In this document: positions 7,194 to 14,835 of the stretch, piece by piece
Layout: each line of letters opens with the position of its first letter
Position numbering within the stretch: the first letter of the stretch is position 1
Assembly: GCF_002005225.1 (NCBI RefSeq)
Contig: NZ_CP019724.1
Location: 6,576,001 to 6,640,000, forward strand
Length of the DNA: 64,000 nt
Direction: 5' to 3'
Source of the DNA: Streptomyces pactum
GTDB lineage: Bacteria > Actinomycetota > Actinomycetes > Streptomycetales > Streptomycetaceae
Position numbers and translations under genes: made by a program
Notes under the pieces: model-generated
What the model was told of the DNA's origin: nothing
Databases searched by the model: none
Seen by the model: the letters and a program-made list of their open reading frames with translations, nothing else

Positions 7194-7874
7194 GTGACTG
7201 TGACGTATTCGTGGGTCGGACCGGTGGCCGGCGCCGACGAGGAGGGGGCCTGGGAGGCACTCGTCGCGACGGCTCGCCGGACGGTGGCGGAGGGGCTGGT
7301 GGTCGGCACCTCCGGCAACGTCTCGGTGCGGGTGGGCGACACGGTGCTGGTCACCCCTTCGGGTGTGCCCTACGACCGTCTGGCCCCGGGTGACATCACC
7401 GGCGTCGACCTCGACGGACGGCAGGTGATCGGCCGGCTGGTGCCCACCAGCGAGCTGCCCATGCACCTCGCCGTGTACCGCGCCACCGACGCCCGCGCCG
7501 TCGTCCACACCCACGCCGTGCACGCGACGGCGGTCTCGCTCCTGGTCCCCGAACTGCCGCCGGTCCACTACATGACCGCCGCCCTCGGCGGCCCCGTCCG
7601 GGTCGCCCCCTACGCGGCCTACGGCACCGACGAACTGGCCCGCAACATGCTCGACGCCCTCACCGGCCGCACCGGCTGCCTCCTCCAGAACCACGGCACG
7701 ATCACCTACGGCGCATCCCTCGACCAGGCCTACGACCGCACCGCCCAACTGGAGTGGATGTCCCGCCTCTGGCTGACGGCCGCCTCGGTCCCGGGCCGCA
7801 CACCGTCCCTGCTGACGGCCGACCAGTTGGCAGCGGTGACGGAACGGCTCCGGGGGTACGGGCAGCGGCCCTGA
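7194..7874 (+). CDS. Class II aldolase/adducin family protein (fuculose-phosphate aldolase type)
   Basis: A 226-residue zinc-dependent aldolase of the FucA/AraD fold, expected to cleave or epimerise a phosphorylated sugar or methylthioribulose-type substrate. Phosphate-loop motifs GTSGNVS (residues 38-44) and TPSG (54-57) are present. Zinc ligands appear as the Glu of TSELPMH (E87), HTH (H105, H107) and QNHG (H167). The GTG start at 7194 has the RBS GAGGGGAG a few bases upstream. It stands alone, divergent from pit. The substrate cannot be deduced from sequence; fuculose-1-phosphate is only the family default. Confidence 0.88.
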   Translation: MTVTYSWVGPVAGADEEGAWEALVATARRTVAEGLVVGTSGNVSVRVGDTVLVTPSGVPYDRLAPGDITGVDLDGRQVIGRLVPTSELPMHLAVYRATDARAVVHTHAVHATAVSLLVPELPPVHYMTAALGGPVRVAPYAAYGTDELARNMLDALTGRTGCLLQNHGTITYGASLDQAYDRTAQLEWMSRLWLTAASVPGRTPSLLTADQLAAVTERLRGYGQRP

Positions 7875-7911
7875 GGAACGGCTGCCCACCGGGCCGGGGA
7901 CTCGTGGCGTC

Positions 7912-8142
7912 CCGGGTCTTCGGGGCCTTCGGGGCTTTCGGGGCCTTCAGGGCCTCCGGGGCTTTCGGGATCTCCGGGATCTCCGGGATCTCCGGGATCT
8001 CCGGGATCTCCGGGATCTCCGGGATCTCCGGGATCTCCGGGATCTCCGGGATCTCCGGGATCTCCGGGATCTCCGGGATCTCCGGGATCTCCGGGATCTC
8101 CGGGATCTCCGGGGCTTTCGGCGCCTCCGGGATCTCCGGGGG
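7912..8142. repeat. 9-bp minisatellite (core of 16 perfect copies)
   Basis: The unit GGGATCTCC is repeated 16 times without error at 7967-8110. It is flanked by degenerate 9-base relatives (GGGGCCTTC, GGGGCTTTC, AGGGCCTCC) from about 7912 and up to 8142. The period is three codons, so frames stay open on both strands, but no convincing start or RBS uses them. The array lies in the 690-base gap between the aldolase and the hydrolase. Confidence 0.95.
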
Positions 8143-8187
8143 CGCCCGGTGCCGGGTGCTGGACCTGTGCCCGCGGGTTTTGTGCCG

Positions 8188-8300
8188 TCGGGGCTCGGGG
8201 CTCGGGGCTCGGGGCTCGGGGGTGCCGGTGCGGCTCGAGCCGTGGGCGCGGGGTGCGTGGGCGCGGGGTGCGTGGGCGCGGGGTGCGTGGGCGCGGCGCG
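8188..8300. repeat. Two further short tandem arrays (7-bp and 15-bp units)
   Basis: TCGGGGC is repeated four times at 8188-8215 with a fifth, altered copy to 8222. CGTGGGCGCGGGGTG is then repeated three times at 8241-8285 with a degenerate fourth copy to 8300. They follow the 9-bp array in the same gap. The rest of the gap (8301-8563) shows only the RBS of the next gene. Confidence 0.9.
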
Positions 8301-8563
8301 CCGGGAGTCCGGCGTGCCCGTGCCGTCGGCGTCCTGGCCGACGGGGGCCGGGTCCGGCAGCGCGTCCCCGCGCCACCGGCGCCCCGGACGGCGGAAGCCG
8401 GCCGAAGCCGCGGTCGGCTTCGGCGCGTACCGCGCCGCTTCGGGGGTACCGGCAGCGGGACCGACTCATGGCTCCGGGCCCCGACCGGACGGCCGGCGGG
8501 GGCTCGTCACTCCCCGCCGATCGCCCACTGGCCGCCCGAGGACTCCACCAGGAGACTGGCCCC

Positions 8564-9691
8564 ATGCGCACTGTCACAGCAACGGCCGCCGCCGTCACCG
8601 CAGCCCTGGCGGCCGGTGCAGCGAGCGTCGCCGCCGGCCGGCTCGCCAGCGACGCCGCGCTCAAGGCGGCTCCCGGCCGGCCCCTGCCCACCGAACCCCG
8701 GCTCACCGTGCACGGCACCGCCGCCGGGCAGATCACCCTCACCCGGGATCTGGCCGCACTGCGCCCCGGCCGTTACGGCCTCGCAGGCGACGGTTCGCAC
8801 GCGGTGGTCGGCCCGGTCCTCGGCACGGCCGAGCACGACGCCGACACAGTCGTCCGCCGCCTCGAACGCGTCACACACGGCACCCTCGCGGCCGGCGACC
8901 GGGCGTGGTTCACCCCGAACCTGTACGTCGGGAACCCGGGCACCGCCCTCGACCTCGAGTACGCCGACGTCGAGGTCCCCGGCGAACTCGGCCCGCTGCC
9001 CGCCTGGTTCCTGCCCGGTTCCCGCCCGACCTGGATCATCGCCGTGCACGGCCTGGGCGCCACCCGCGAACACGCCATGAACTTCATGGCACCCCTGCGC
9101 CGCCGGCACGTCCCGGTGCTCGCCCTCGCCTACCGCGGCGATGTCGGCGCCCCGCCCTCGCCGGACGGCCTGCACCACTTCGGCGAGACCGAGTGGCGCG
9201 ACCTGGACGCGGCCGTCCGCTACGCCCTGGACCACGGCGCCCGCCAGGTCGTTCTGCTCGGCTGGTCCACCGGCGCCACCATGGCCCTGCGCACCGCCGC
9301 GCTCTCCGGCGTACGCGAGCGCATCGCGGGGCTCGTGTTGGACTCCCCGGTCCTCAGTTGGGAGACCACCCTGCGCGCCCTGGCCACCGCCCGCCGCACA
9401 CCGGGCGCCCTCCTCCCGCTCGCCGTCCGCGCCGCCCAGGGCCGCGCCGGCCTGCACGCCGACAGCGACGTCCACACCGGGGGCCTCTACCGCCCGGCGG
9501 TCCCTACCCTGATCTTCCACGGCCCCGACGACGTGGTGGCCCCGTGGCGGCTCTCCCGCCGCCTCGCCGACACCCACCCGCGCCTGGTCGCCCTCCACAC
9601 GGTCGAGGGCGCCCCGCACGGCGCCATGTGGAACGCCGACCCCGACCACTACGAAGAGATCCTGCGCCGCTTCATGACCCCACTGGTGTGA
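8564..9691 (+). CDS. Alpha/beta hydrolase with N-terminal signal-like segment
   Basis: A 375-residue protein starting with ATG at 8564 behind the RBS AGGAG. Residues 1-28 form an Ala-rich hydrophobic segment that may be a signal peptide or anchor. The hydrolase core carries the oxyanion-region motif [13 protein letters not shown], the nucleophile elbow [11 protein letters not shown] (Ser about 235), an acid candidate in [11 protein letters not shown] and the His of [12 protein letters not shown] near the C-terminus. This is a complete Ser-Asp-His set. The substrate is unknown; lysophospholipase- or esterase-like activity is the family expectation. The frame is open far upstream through the minisatellite, but that part is not believed to be coding. 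Confidence 0.88.
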
Positions 9692-10011: not shown

Positions 10012-11289
10012 ATGGCGCGCTCCGGCCTGGCCGACGCGGCCCGCGTCGCCCGCTGGGCCGACACCGCCCTGGGCCCCGGCCGCGGCAGCGCGACCGCGGA
10101 CGGCAAGGCCACCCTCTCCGACGCGACCGCCGACCAGGCGGCCCGGGAGCTGGGCCTGACCGCGGCCAAGGTCCGCGCCGACTGGGACACCGCCCGACTC
10201 GCCGGACTGGTCGAGGTGCACGGCGACAGCGCCCGCCCCGGCTGGCGGCTGCGCGCCTGGAACCGCGACGACAGCGCCGTACTGCGCGGCTGGGTCGCCC
10301 TCTTCGACGCCTGGTCGCTGGCCCACCCCGAGCCCGACGGGCAGGAGCCCGCCGCCGTGGCCGAGGTCATCTCCGCGATGCCCCAGGTGCTCTCCTTCCT
10401 CCAGTTGTCTGCCGGGCCCGTCCCGGTGGCGCAGCTCCTGGACCTGCTGGAGCAGCGCGTCACCGAACTGCGCACCGAGCGCTGCGAGGTGCCCTACGGC
10501 CCCCGTCTCGAGCCCGGCACGCCGCAGTCCCCGCCGTCCGCACCGCTCACCGACGCCGCCGCCGACACCCCGCTCGCCCCCCTCCTCGACTGGGCCCTGC
10601 ACGCCCTCGCCTCCGTCGGCGCCCTCACTTGCGGCGACGGCCACGCCACGCTCACGCCGCTCGGGAGCTGGGCGGTCTGGGTCAAGCTGGAGCAGATCTG
10701 CGTCGCCGCCCAGAGCCCGGCCGGGAACATCGAGCAGTCGGCCGAGGACATGCTCCGCGGCTGCGCCCAGCTCCGCCCGAACGCCGCCCGGGCCGAGTAC
10801 CGGGCCTGGCTCGCCGCCCGCCCCGTCGGCAGCGCCGTCGCCGAGCTGCTCGCCGGCGCCCGCGGCGAGGACGCCCTGCTGCGCGGCCTCGCCTTCGAGG
10901 CGCTGCGCGTCGTCGGTGCCCCCGCCGAGCCCGATGTCCGCGCCGTCCTCGACGAGCCGACGCTGCGGCCGTACGCCCTGCTGTGGCTGGCCGAGCACGA
11001 CGGCGCCGACCCCGAGGACGCCCACGAGGTGCTCACGCGCCAGGAGGCCACGTGGCTGTGGGTCGACACCGCGGCCGCCGTCGCCGACCACGGCGAGGCG
11101 CCACTGCTCGTCCGGCACCTGGAGTCGGCGGTGCAGGCCACCGTCCCGGCCCTGCTGGACGAGGTCCGGGCCGTCGGCCATCCCCGCACCGTGCAGGTCC
11201 TGGTCGCCCTCGCCGCGGCGCACCCCGACCCCGCCCTGGCCAAGGCCGTACGCAGGGCGGCCTTCCAGGTCCACACCGGAGGTAGCTGA
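10012..11289 (+). CDS. Conserved protein of unknown function with HEAT-like C-terminal half
   Basis: The chosen ATG at 10012 has GGAG nine bases upstream and gives 425 residues; ATG 9937 or GTG 9862 would extend it in frame by 25 or 50 residues with poor codon use. The N-terminal part (LSDATADQAARELGLTAAKVRADWDTARLAGLVEV) looks like a small winged-helix-type fold. The C-terminal 150 residues are short Ala/Leu-rich helical pairs (LLRGLAFEALRVVG, VPALLDEVRAVGHPRTVQVLVALAAAHPDP) like HEAT repeats. No catalytic motif is seen and I do not recognise the family. It lies between two minisatellite tracts without an obvious operon partner. Confidence 0.75.
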   Translation: MARSGLADAARVARWADTALGPGRGSATADGKATLSDATADQAARELGLTAAKVRADWDTARLAGLVEVHGDSARPGWRLRAWNRDDSAVLRGWVALFDAWSLAHPEPDGQEPAAVAEVISAMPQVLSFLQLSAGPVPVAQLLDLLEQRVTELRTERCEVPYGPRLEPGTPQSPPSAPLTDAAADTPLAPLLDWALHALASVGALTCGDGHATLTPLGSWAVWVKLEQICVAAQSPAGNIEQSAEDMLRGCAQLRPNAARAEYRAWLAARPVGSAVAELLAGARGEDALLRGLAFEALRVVGAPAEPDVRAVLDEPTLRPYALLWLAEHDGADPEDAHEVLTRQEATWLWVDTAAAVADHGEAPLLVRHLESAVQATVPALLDEVRAVGHPRTVQVLVALAAAHPDPALAKAVRRAAFQVHTGGS

Positions 11290-11391
11290 CCACGCCGGGC
11301 ATCCGAGCCCGAGGCCCGGTCGGAGCCCCGTGCCCGGCCCCGTGCCCAGCCGCCCGTCCGGCCCCGGCTCCGGACCACCCACGCGACGTAG

Positions 11392-11587
11392 CCCACCGCG
11401 CACGGCCCACCGCGCACGGCCTGCGGCGCACGGCCCGCCGCGCACGGCCCACCGCGCACGGCCTGCGGCGCACGGCCCACCGCGCACGGCCTGCGGCGCA
11501 CGGCCCACCGCGCACGGCCCGCCGCGCACGGCCCACCGCGCACGGCCCACCGCGCACGGCCCGCCGCGCACGGCCCACCGCGCACGG
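11392..11587. repeat. 14-bp minisatellite, 14 units
   Basis: The unit CCCACCGCGCACGG and its variants CCTGCGGCGCACGG and CCCGCCGCGCACGG are repeated 14 times head to tail with constant 14-base spacing. The array fills the middle of the gap between the HEAT-like protein gene and the VOC protein gene (11290-11759). The remainder of that gap is GC-rich with no gene-like ORF. A 14-base period is not a multiple of three, which argues against coding use. Confidence 0.95.
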
Positions 11588-11759
11588 TCGGCCGCGAACA
11601 ACCGGACGCGTACGACCAGCCCCGACCGACCGCGGACGCTCTCCGCACGGGCGACGAGCAGGCGGTGCACAGCCCGGTGCGCCGCTCGCGGCGGTACACC
11701 GGTCCGGTGCCGCGGCGGCACACCGATCCGCCCACGGGCCGGCCGCGAACCGCCGGAGG

Positions 11760-12173
11760 CTACCCGCGGATCTCCGGCGCGTACGTCCCGAAGCTCCAGA
11801 CGTTTCCCTCCAGGTCCCGGGCCATGTAGTCCCGCGATCCGTAGTCCTGGTCCGTCGGGGGCATCAGGATCTCCGCGCCGTGTTCCACGGCCCGCCGGTG
11901 ATGGGCGTCGACGTCCGCCACCACGACGTACACCCCCGTCGGGCCGGCGTTCTTCATCGCCTCGTCGAAGCGGCTGCCCGTGCCCTTCGAACCGAGCATG
12001 ACCGCGCCGTTGCCCTGGGCCAGCTCGGCGTGGGCCACCGAGCCGTCCTCGCCCTCGTACACCGCCAGTTCCGTGAAGCCGAAGGCCTGGGTGAGCTGGC
12101 GGACCGCCGCCTTGGCATCCGCGTACAGCAGCGTCGGGTAGACGCTCGGACGCCCGCCGTCCATGCCTGCCAT
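11760..12173 (-). CDS. VOC/glyoxalase-superfamily protein
   Basis: A 137-residue single-domain protein of the glyoxalase/bleomycin-resistance (VOC) fold, starting ATG at 12173 behind AAAGGAGT. It shows the beta-alpha-beta pattern of the fold: VYPTLLYADAKAAVRQLTQAF at the start, GNGAVMLGSK in the middle, VVVADVDAHHRRAVEHGAEI opening the second module and YMARDLEGNVWSFGTY at the end, the typical D-x-EGN-x-W-x-F close. It resembles the YdcJ/PhnB-like subset rather than a true glyoxalase I. The ligand is unknown. It is monocistronic and divergent from the ABC-F gene. Confidence 0.85.
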   Translation of the reverse strand: MAGMDGGRPSVYPTLLYADAKAAVRQLTQAFGFTELAVYEGEDGSVAHAELAQGNGAVMLGSKGTGSRFDEAMKNAGPTGVYVVVADVDAHHRRAVEHGAEILMPPTDQDYGSRDYMARDLEGNVWSFGTYAPEIRG

Positions 12174-12376
12174 GCCGATCACTCCTTTGTGAGCCGGTAC
12201 CGGAGGAGTGGACGCCACGAAGACCGGCGAAGTCCGGAAAATCATGGAATCCAGCCCTGACGCCCAGTCTCGCACCGACCACTGACAACGCTCCTGACCC
12301 GCGTGTGCGAACACAGGACCCCCGAACAAGGGGCCGCGAACGCCGGAACCCGGGAAAAGCGGTTGCACGGCCCCGT

Positions 12377-12413
12377 TAGAATGGCCCCCATGGCCATTCT
12401 CCTCGCGCATTAG
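12377..12413 (+). promoter_or_regulatory. -10 box and short upstream ORF before the ABC-F gene
   Basis: TAGAAT (12377-12382) is a good -10 hexamer. Seven bases later ATG at 12390 opens a seven-codon ORF, MAILLAH, ending with TAG at 12411-12413. An in-frame ATG at 12381 would give MAPMAILLAH. The spacing suggests a leaderless transcript beginning at the uORF. The ABC-F start follows 108 bases later. The rest of the 12174-12521 gap has no other gene-like ORF. This could be a regulatory leader peptide; see findings. Confidence 0.5.
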
Positions 12414-12521
12414 ACGGCGGGAACGCCCGCCCGTCGCCCGCCACCACTCTTTGAACGGCGCGCTGCGCGCGGCACCCCCCTCGCCGCCCATCCCGCCAAC
12501 CACCCGCCCAGGAGTCTGACC

Positions 12522-14118
<1,597 letters not shown>

Positions 14119-14120
<2 letters not shown>

Positions 14121-14186
14121 TCGAATGGATGATCCACTGGGTATGGATCATTCGACCGATCCGTGATCCACCATCTGTGTGAGATC
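14119..14186. promoter_or_regulatory. Cluster of six GATC sites ahead of gbn
   Basis: GATC occurs at 14119, 14131, 14146, 14158, 14165 and 14183, six times in 68 bases, with further copies before the gbn start (including within TGATCATG near 14412). Gbn of S. coelicolor is known to recognise GATC-containing sites, so this is a candidate autoregulatory region. The first GATC overlaps the ABC-F stop codon. Confidence 0.55.
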
Positions 14187-14220
14187 TCCTCATCACGAGG
14201 TGTGTCGTACATCGATTTCG

Positions 14221-14253
14221 CGGCCGGGCCCCCAGTCACCGGGGGCCCGGCCG
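14221..14253 (+). terminator. Hairpin terminator after the ABC-F gene
   Basis: A perfect 13-bp GC-only stem (14221-14233 paired with 14241-14253) with a 7-base loop lies 100 bases beyond the ABC-F stop. Confidence 0.8.
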
Positions 14254-14455
14254 TTACGCCCTTCTGACCTGGAACTTCGCGGAAAAACCCGTTCGGCCGT
14301 ACGCGCACGATCCTCTGGAATCAAAGATTCCGTATGTGGGGACTCGCTCCTGTCGTCACAACCTTGTCTCATCGACCTTGCCGAATGGGTGGCCATGAAG
14401 CCCTGGAGGGGTGATCATGAGGAGACCAGAGCGCACTTCCCATGAGGAGGCACGG

Positions 14456-14677
14456 GTGGCCGAGACTCTGAAGAAGGGCAGCCGGGTAACCGGCGCCGCG
14501 CGCGACAAGCTCGCGGCAGACCTGAAGAAGAAGTACGACGCCGGTGCGAGCATCCGGGCGTTGGCCGAGGAAACCGGCCGCTCGTATGGCTTTGTGCACC
14601 GCATGCTCAGTGAGTCGGGTGTCACGCTCCGAGGGCGTGGCGGGGCTACCCGGGGCAAAAAGGCCACATCGGCCTGA
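14456..14677 (+). CDS. gbn: GATC-binding nucleoid-associated protein Gbn
   Basis: A 73-residue basic protein: MAETLKKGSRVTGAARDKLA, then a single helix-turn-helix (AGASIRALAEETGRSYGFVH, about residues 31-50), then a Lys/Arg/Gly-rich tail ending RGKKATSA. It matches Gbn (SCO1839) of S. coelicolor as I remember it, a small nucleoid-associated protein that binds GATC sites and affects development and antibiotic production. The GTG start at 14456, behind GAGGAGG, gives the family length; the longer frame from 14411 lacks support. The upstream region is rich in GATC, and the gene ends in a stem-loop. Confidence 0.92.
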   Translation: MAETLKKGSRVTGAARDKLAADLKKKYDAGASIRALAEETGRSYGFVHRMLSESGVTLRGRGGATRGKKATSA

Positions 14678-14715
14678 TGCTCCGGGCGGCCCCTCGACTC
14701 CGAAAGTGAAGGTGG

Positions 14716-14747
14716 CCACCCGGCCGGTCGTCCGACCGTCCGGGTGG
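14716..14747 (+). terminator. Hairpin terminator after gbn
   Basis: CCACCCGG...CCGGGTGG arms form a 15-bp stem with one mismatch and a two-base loop, beginning 39 bases after the gbn stop and followed by TTA. Confidence 0.7.
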
Positions 14748-14835
14748 TTACTGTGCAGTCACTTAGCTCTGCCGTCGTACGGCGTCGAAGCCGGCGCACG
14801 GCGGGGACGACGACCGCACCCTTCGGAGGCGCCCC

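Follow-up and report, generated by a model that had tools for sequence, protein, structure and literature searches.

The window, a 64,000-nucleotide stretch of Streptomyces pactum DNA, comes from a genome of 8.55 Mb in a single contig. Its nearest named relatives are Streptomyces, judged from the 80 top-ranking stretches out of at least 593 that are related. The locus of interest holds a gene for an ABC-F protein, preceded by a very short open reading frame (hereafter the mini-ORF) close to a -10-like promoter box. Its features are as follows.

12354 to 12368, forward strand: upstream element made of GAAAAG (12354-12359), 3 bp and TTGCAC (12363-12368), 8 bp before the -10-like box and conserved in relatives
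12377 to 12382, forward strand: -10-like box TAGAAT, read from the sequence; in relatives 6-7 nt separate the box from the ATG
12390 to 12413, forward strand: seven-codon mini-ORF MAILLAH-TAG, apparently leaderless, recognised by conservation, a frame test and a strict pattern search
12390 to 12393, forward strand: AUGG of the mini-ORF, which in the predicted fold also pairs with CCGU (12520-12523)
12399 to 12403, forward strand: CUCCU of the mini-ORF, the predicted anti-Shine-Dalgarno strand (pair probabilities 0.80-0.89 with 12510-12514)
12413 to 12435, forward strand: predicted post-stop hairpin GACGGCGGG-AACG-CCCGCCCGTC, from the minimum-energy fold and from arm covariation in the window's family
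12510 to 12514, forward strand: Shine-Dalgarno sequence AGGAG of the ABC-F gene, from the sequence and pair probabilities
12522 to 14120, forward strand: ABC-F gene, 532 amino acids, GTG start (NCBIfam NF000355; two Pfam ABC_tran stretches)
14417 to 14677, forward strand: small helix-turn-helix-like gene, 86 amino acids, which accompanies the ABC-F gene in relatives; the label is read from the sequence

The protein scores 395.7 bits against the NCBIfam model for ribosomal protection-like ABC-F proteins, above the cut-off of 380, and so belongs to the ribosome-protection type, as the sequence-only reading had proposed. Its best solved relatives are nearly tied: PoxtA (1.7e-83), a phenicol and oxazolidinone factor, and YheS (5.4e-83). 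The gene is near-universal: within the genus 149 of 150 genomes have it, as do all 61 of a family sample and 189 of 197 genomes of a class sample. Below, f-numbers denote sampled families, f1 being the window's own, and L-numbers denote loci. A motif of the helix-turn-helix-like gene accompanies the ABC-F gene in all loci inspected of f1 (30/30), f17 (30/30) and f19 (20/20), in 19/30 of f4 and in 0/28 of f18.

The arrangement described earlier for this locus was recovered on re-reading the window: TAGAAT, seven bases, an ATG at 12390, MAILLAH closed by a TAG that ends at 12413, and 108 nt before the GTG at 12522. Transcription is predicted to start at 12389-12390, and at WblC-activated promoters of S. 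coelicolor starts lie 7-8 bp after the -10 (PMC7157823). A consensus sigma-70 scan of 12000-12700 matched no promoter, the -10 lacking a TTGACA-like -35. The upstream element resembles a WblC-like box and -35 that lie about one helical turn too near TAGAAT. It is kept in most f1 leaders: 118 of 139 have TTGC at a distance of 13-14 nt upstream of the -10-like box, and 110 of those 118 also have AAA no more than 12 nt further upstream. The WblC/WhiB7 consensus is GAAAWY, 3 bp, TKGMNN, 16-19 bp and TANNNT (PMC7157823). We rejected a standard promoter of this kind for the window because its GAAAAG-CGG-TTGCAC is followed by 8 bp, not 16-19 bp, before the -10. An ECF-sigma reading (GGAAA-N17-GTT) was also set aside, since by eye the constant part is the TAGAMT box and not CGTT. 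Likewise, the three Rfam matches in 11700-14800 came nowhere near the gathering score. Elsewhere in the window, low-complexity repeats appear in the list of open reading frames at about 7754-9691 and at 11033-11735, as GIS/PEI triplets and GRARWAVRGGPCA-like repeats.

Within the window's family the mini-ORF is strongly conserved. With a TA[AGC][AC]NT box, 6-7 nt, RTG and an open reading frame of 3-10 codons as the criterion, it was found in all 121 loci from L001 to L121, compared with 0.2 expected from dinucleotide shuffles, and it is therefore no chance reading frame. The possibility raised at the outset that orthologues would fail to conserve it is thereby excluded for f1, its start and stop both being kept. 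An initial scan of 110 loci from Streptomyces, Kitasatospora and Streptantibioticus, which allowed box-to-start spacings of 4-10, recovered it in 109. All of these matches fell at a spacing of 7 (55) or 6 (54), which fits the leaderless geometry first suggested from the window, and the stop was TAG in 108 and TAA in one. The locus that was missed, L059, has a TACAGT box and, by eye, a mini-ORF. Of 392 genomes in the genus, 222 contain a strict MAILLAH-like pattern, and the backwards control is 0 in every row. In other genera of the family the mini-ORF was present in 28 of 40 loci. By eye, three Kitasatospora-type loci (L107, L108 and L149) encode MAECHTHV with a TAG stop overlapping the Shine-Dalgarno sequence (TAGGAG), and in a fourth, L172, the frame apparently stays open as far as a TGA that overlaps the ABC-F ATG.

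Across the whole sample, the mini-ORF occurs in at least one locus of 12 of the 30 families, f1 included (304 non-duplicate loci); many of the families are represented by one locus only. Outside Streptomyces the peptides are unrelated in sequence. It is present in 143/155 loci of f1, 18/36 of f17 (MSAPD, MHTPD, MRVISD, MLPS), 12/18 of f19 (MMPVAD, MNSVAD), 7/27 of f18 (MTSAAS), 3/4 of f9, 3/3 of f28 (MPRRTP, MPSVRTP, MSSCT) and 2/2 of f20 (MLRCEP, MRGCEP), and in single loci of f7, f8, f14, f26 and f37. Family f4 has no mini-ORF (0/30 loci); there the ABC-F gene itself looks leaderless in 7 of 29 non-duplicate loci. Reading the conserved TAAAAT...TTCNTGTGC leader of f4 by eye brought up no recurring mini-ORF; loci L219, L222, L225-L229, L233 and L234 show TAAAAT and, after it, a stretch resembling GGTTCNTGTGC, again by eye and with no recurring mini-ORF.

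A frame test gave the clearest evidence that these are reading frames. For loci chosen solely by a -10-like box and an RTG at +7/+8, those outside f1 reached an in-frame stop within 3-10 codons in 50 cases out of 51, while each of the two other frames gave 1; in f1 the count was 143 of 148, compared with 2 and 4. These loci are not independent events, since related ones are included (twelve of f19 and seven of f18, for example, among the 51).

Several rules of counting apply throughout. The family sample comprised upstream regions from 40 of 51 genomes outside the genus, and for the class 54 loci (14 + 40) were drawn from beyond the genus, about one per genus, among places listed with coordinates. 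Some genomes occur in several sets; duplicates were removed for the frame test and the family tally, and identical pairs for the permutation and recoding tests. Scans accepted ATG or GTG starts only. One locus, L323, was left out as its match begins at residue 113, leaving 27 of 28 f18 loci, and MRFRIRI (L207) was dropped from the counts of peptide endings as a likely chance match. Locus counts differ between analyses because the 121-locus and frame-test scans used stricter promoter boxes than the pairing and peptide-ending sets.

The mini-ORF is also complementary to the Shine-Dalgarno sequence of the ABC-F gene, a point absent from the sequence-only reading. In the window the predicted pairs are AUGG:CCGU, CA:UG and CUCCU:AGGAG, at 0.80-0.89 per Shine-Dalgarno base; 13 of 500 base-shuffled mini-ORFs pair equally well. 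Elsewhere the partners differ: GC(A/G)CUCCCGA lies opposite UCGGGAGUGU in f17, and CUCCGUGGC opposite GCCACGGAG in f19. The two strands covary in f1, in f17 and in the class set. With relatedness ignored throughout, cognate pairs were more stable than permuted ones among 65 rows outside f1 (-14.92 vs -11.64 kcal/mol), the 22 rows of the class set (-14.93 vs -11.29), 25 rows of f17 (-15.04 vs -12.28) and 134 rows of f1 (-14.86 vs -14.03), with none of 5000 permutations as good in any of them. When f1 was reduced to one row per peptide, one of 5000 was. No covariation was found in f18 (834/5000 permutations as good) or in f19 (cognate better in 2/9).

Further, of all parts of the leader, it is the mini-ORF that pairs best with the ribosome-binding site in 86/124 rows of f1, 7/7 of f19, 12/25 of f17, 8/19 of the class set and 0/11 of f18. 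The Shine-Dalgarno sequence is predicted to pair with it at 0.72 in f1, compared with 0.18 for shuffled mini-ORFs, and at 0.51 compared with 0.08 in f17; in 104 of 138 f1 leaders the predicted probability exceeds 0.5. The mean f1 duplex of -14.9 weakens to -12.9 on synonymous recoding and to -9.8 on base shuffling, while per sequence a median of 22% of synonymous f1 mini-ORFs pair equally well. The arm that follows the stop codon covaries with the gap between mini-ORF and gene in f1 (0/3000 permutations; 90/138 leaders; relatedness ignored) and weakly in the class set (52/3000), with no such covariation in f19, f17 or f18. The earlier description of the gap as hairpin-capable is borne out in part: a hairpin is predicted at 12413-12435, yet the full leader has an unexceptional folding energy, equalled or bettered by 107 of 200 shuffles (z 0.13).

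We consider it somewhat better than an even bet that this arrangement is a leaderless translational attenuator, in which a ribosome held on the mini-ORF keeps the ABC-F start open. Transcription would begin at the ATG of the mini-ORF or a single base upstream of it. In the idle mRNA, mini-ORF RNA would pair with the Shine-Dalgarno sequence and start region of the ABC-F gene, which would be poorly translated; the post-stop hairpin would shorten the loop of this helix. Ribosomes would load straight onto the 5′ ATG and translate the mini-ORF. If they read through quickly and depart, the helix would form and ABC-F would stay low; if one is held, for example by a peptidyl-transferase inhibitor, the ABC-F start would remain unpaired and the protein would be made. 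The whole looks like a switch that senses stalled ribosomes.

Modelling bears on the direction of the switch, which we infer. A ribosome placed on the mini-ORF relieves the cost of opening the ribosome-binding site by 2.2 kcal/mol in f1, compared with 0.4 for shuffled mini-ORFs. Relief and control are 1.4 vs 0.0 in f17, 1.3 vs 0.2 in f18, 0.0 vs 1.5 in f19 and 1.6 vs 1.2 in the class set, so that f19 gains nothing and the class set barely more than its control. With the mini-ORF occupied, the Shine-Dalgarno sequence of f1 is still paired at 0.81 in the model; in the window GGAG is paired at 0.93-0.99, and the freed Shine-Dalgarno sequence can pair with codons 2-3. Pairing is therefore well supported and switching moderately so, the predicted release being modest and the freed Shine-Dalgarno sequence being able to pair again.

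Complementarity to the Shine-Dalgarno sequence would equally suit translational coupling, in which the mini-ORF is a constitutive opener: ribosomes finishing it would melt the helix or re-initiate, and expression would track leaderless initiation and not stalling by drugs. The overlaps seen by eye in L172 and in L107, L108 and L149 would fit this arrangement. However, the usual gap of 57-60 nt (68/109 loci) is long for re-initiation, and mini-ORFs of 4-10 codons would probably let the helix re-form within about a second, so we regard coupling as rather unlikely.

The window's own gap, at 108 nt, exceeds the usual length. Its positions 12436-12500 hold TTTGAACGGCGCGCTGCGCGCGGC, which occurs once in the window, and by eye L099 and L100 have a similar stretch in their leaders. 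In f1 the gap is rich in C and poor in G (C 0.50, G 0.24, compared with C 0.40, G 0.34 at 260-400 nt upstream). Such composition would suit attenuation of transcription, Rho-dependent or intrinsic, with the C-rich untranslated leader ending transcription early and occupancy of the mini-ORF altering the outcome. Transcription attenuation is used by other ABC-F leaders with uORFs (PMC10201436, PMC12421871). Yet no intrinsic terminator was found in 12000-12700, and runs of five Ts are rare, being present in 3 of the 138 gaps of f1 and 1 of the 49 from elsewhere, which makes attenuation of transcription less likely than attenuation of translation. It would also leave the Shine-Dalgarno complementarity unexplained, and we think it very improbable.

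How the mini-ORF varies indicates what selection acts upon. Among 130 seven-codon mini-ORFs of f1, codon 3 varies mainly at its first base, its third being T in 113, and codon 6 mainly at its second, its third being G in 124. Most of these changes replace the amino acid and leave the third base untouched, a signature of selection on RNA and unlike the behaviour of a conserved peptide. Conversely, codon 2 encodes alanine in 129 of 130 through GCC, GCA and GCT. The last codon is CAT in 106, GAT in 13, CAC in 8, CAA in 2 and GCG in 1, and the stop is TAG in all 130. Residue conservation, one of the expectations first set for the mini-ORF, thus holds at codon 2 and fails at codons 3 and 6. We conclude from these patterns that RNA and peptide both appear to matter, codon by codon. 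A purely structural 5′ RNA element, masking the ribosome-binding site through a short frame that is never translated, would account for codons 3 and 6, and pairing for codons 4-5. It would not predict the frame-specific stops of other families (50/51 loci), an ATG or GTG held at +7/+8 from the box with lengths of 4-10 codons that all close in frame, or an alanine kept through three synonymous codons. For these reasons we give such an element hardly any credence.

Linezolid and chloramphenicol stall ribosomes best when the penultimate residue is Ala, Ser or Thr (PMC8987054). As a rule for these peptides, a penultimate residue of this kind was not supported in f1, where 13 of 42 unique peptides have one (shuffle 0.25), and is weak among the other peptides, at 22 of 49 (0.022). 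The drug-context rule is therefore weakly supported by peptide sequence, and an ending tuned to termination seems at least as likely. The last residue is D, E, H, P or S in 36 of 42 unique f1 peptides and 39 of 49 others, in a residue set that was picked after looking. Such endings would accord with a switch that needs no drug, in which slow termination at the mini-ORF is relieved by the ABC-F protein itself, so that low ABC-F lengthens the stall and raises ABC-F translation. Acidic residues set stalls that EttA rescues (PMC12421871), and a C-terminal proline can slow termination (PMC7246954). But the usual last residue in Streptomyces is His, neither acidic nor Pro, and action of the ABC-F protein at termination is itself a supposition. 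We judge this drug-free loop improbable, and continue to favour the stalled-ribosome attenuator.

The same layout recurs upstream of a second group of genes. All 14 paralogous ABC-F genes (L325-L338), which are all the ABC-F copies listed with coordinates at 59-69% identity and come from two families, have a leaderless seven-codon mini-ORF with a TAG stop, 58-64 nt before the gene. Seven of the 14 encode MSTPRIS and seven encode variants. The mini-ORF is largely complementary to the Shine-Dalgarno sequence, ACGCCCCGAA lying opposite UUCGGAGCGU with one mismatch, and in L335 twelve contiguous pairs are possible; both paralog leaders that were folded (n=2) have a post-stop hairpin. GAAA[AT] lies 32-35 bp before the -10 in 8 of 14, where a WblC box would begin 31-34 bp before it, and 2 of 14 fit the full WblC promoter pattern. 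WblC drives the response of S. coelicolor to translation inhibitors (PMC7157823), so these WblC-like boxes lend indirect support to an antibiotic-response role. The exact MSTPR(I/V)S pattern is found in 6 of 296 class genomes and is absent from the window's genome. Among closer copies, one 92% identical to the window's ABC-F gene (L340, genome G019) has no mini-ORF, and the first copy in that genome, L341, keeps MAILLVH. An 80% copy (L339, genome G017) has none either within the roughly 60 nt upstream that were covered.

The window's ABC-F protein is 62-69% identical to those of f4, which are probably Mycobacteriaceae, given the gene order around OcrA/Rv1473. This identity and the helix-turn-helix-like gene beside the ABC-F gene suggest orthology to Mycobacterium OcrA/Rv1473, the comparison running through f4. 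OcrA/Rv1473 protects against linezolid, an oxazolidinone, and chloramphenicol, a phenicol (PMC9159947, PMC13041422). Given this probable orthology, our guess is that phenicols or oxazolidinones would be the trigger.

We speculate, with appreciably less than even confidence, that the leader is an old actinomycete device in which one leaderless reading frame of 4-10 codons is both ribosome sensor and anti-Shine-Dalgarno. Its on or off state would be fixed during transcription, by whether the 5′ end is occupied when the ribosome-binding site emerges. The ending, a small residue followed by Asp, His, Ser or Pro and a stop, would make termination the sensed step, and the device would serve a near-universal ABC-F gene together with a paralog in which a WblC-like promoter is frequent. 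If true, a ribosome-protection-type factor found in almost all actinomycetes would be run by a very simple translation sensor: no 5′ UTR, few codons and one helix. The probable relatives of this factor in mycobacteria blunt the action of linezolid and chloramphenicol. Leaderless translation would gain a clear regulatory role, and the leader could serve in Streptomyces as a compact reporter for stalled ribosomes, besides pointing to peptide endings that may sense termination.

No earlier report of this leader was found in the open-access literature searched, where absence is weak evidence. The peptides MAILLAH, MAILLVH, MANLLAD, MMPVAD and MAILPVH returned only matches in that literature that, judged by title, concern unrelated medical or social topics. 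Among the close parallels are the translational attenuators of erm and cat-86, in which a ribosome on a leader reading frame unmasks the Shine-Dalgarno sequence of the resistance gene, as proposed here. They differ in having a longer leader reading frame with its own Shine-Dalgarno sequence, and also in the class of protein controlled and in the start, which in the window appears leaderless.

Attenuation through uORFs is established for other ABC-F genes, the resistance genes vmlR (MIN), cplR (MRI), are5sc (MLV) and tiaA (MVGDDDISG) among them (PMC10201436, PMC12421871). As in the window, a very short uORF precedes the ABC-F gene and, in their case, exposes it upon stalling; cplR likewise hides its Shine-Dalgarno sequence. 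These leaders are longer, however, at 212 nt for cplR, 194 for tiaA and 232 for are5sc, and ribosome-binding sites are described for the uORFs of are5sc and tiaA, whereas the window's uORF is apparently leaderless. Terminators are described or predicted in this group (PMC10201436, PMC12421871); in the window's leader none is seen, and the uORF itself is the anti-Shine-Dalgarno. The uORF of wblC/whiB7 also controls an antibiotic-response gene in Streptomyces, but through transcription attenuation of a regulator gene, and the likeness is one of description only (PMC7157823). Leaderless uORFs of mycobacteria are similar in being short, leaderless, upstream of a gene and proposed as regulators; the examples described are cysteine-rich and precede other genes, and Rv1473 is not mentioned in that account (PMC4633059). 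Control of ABC-F genes by uORFs and leaderless uORFs in mycobacteria are thus already known (PMC10201436, PMC12421871, PMC4633059). What is new here is that the uORF, apparently leaderless, doubles as the anti-Shine-Dalgarno, is spread over many families and is used by a near-universal ABC-F gene and a paralog.
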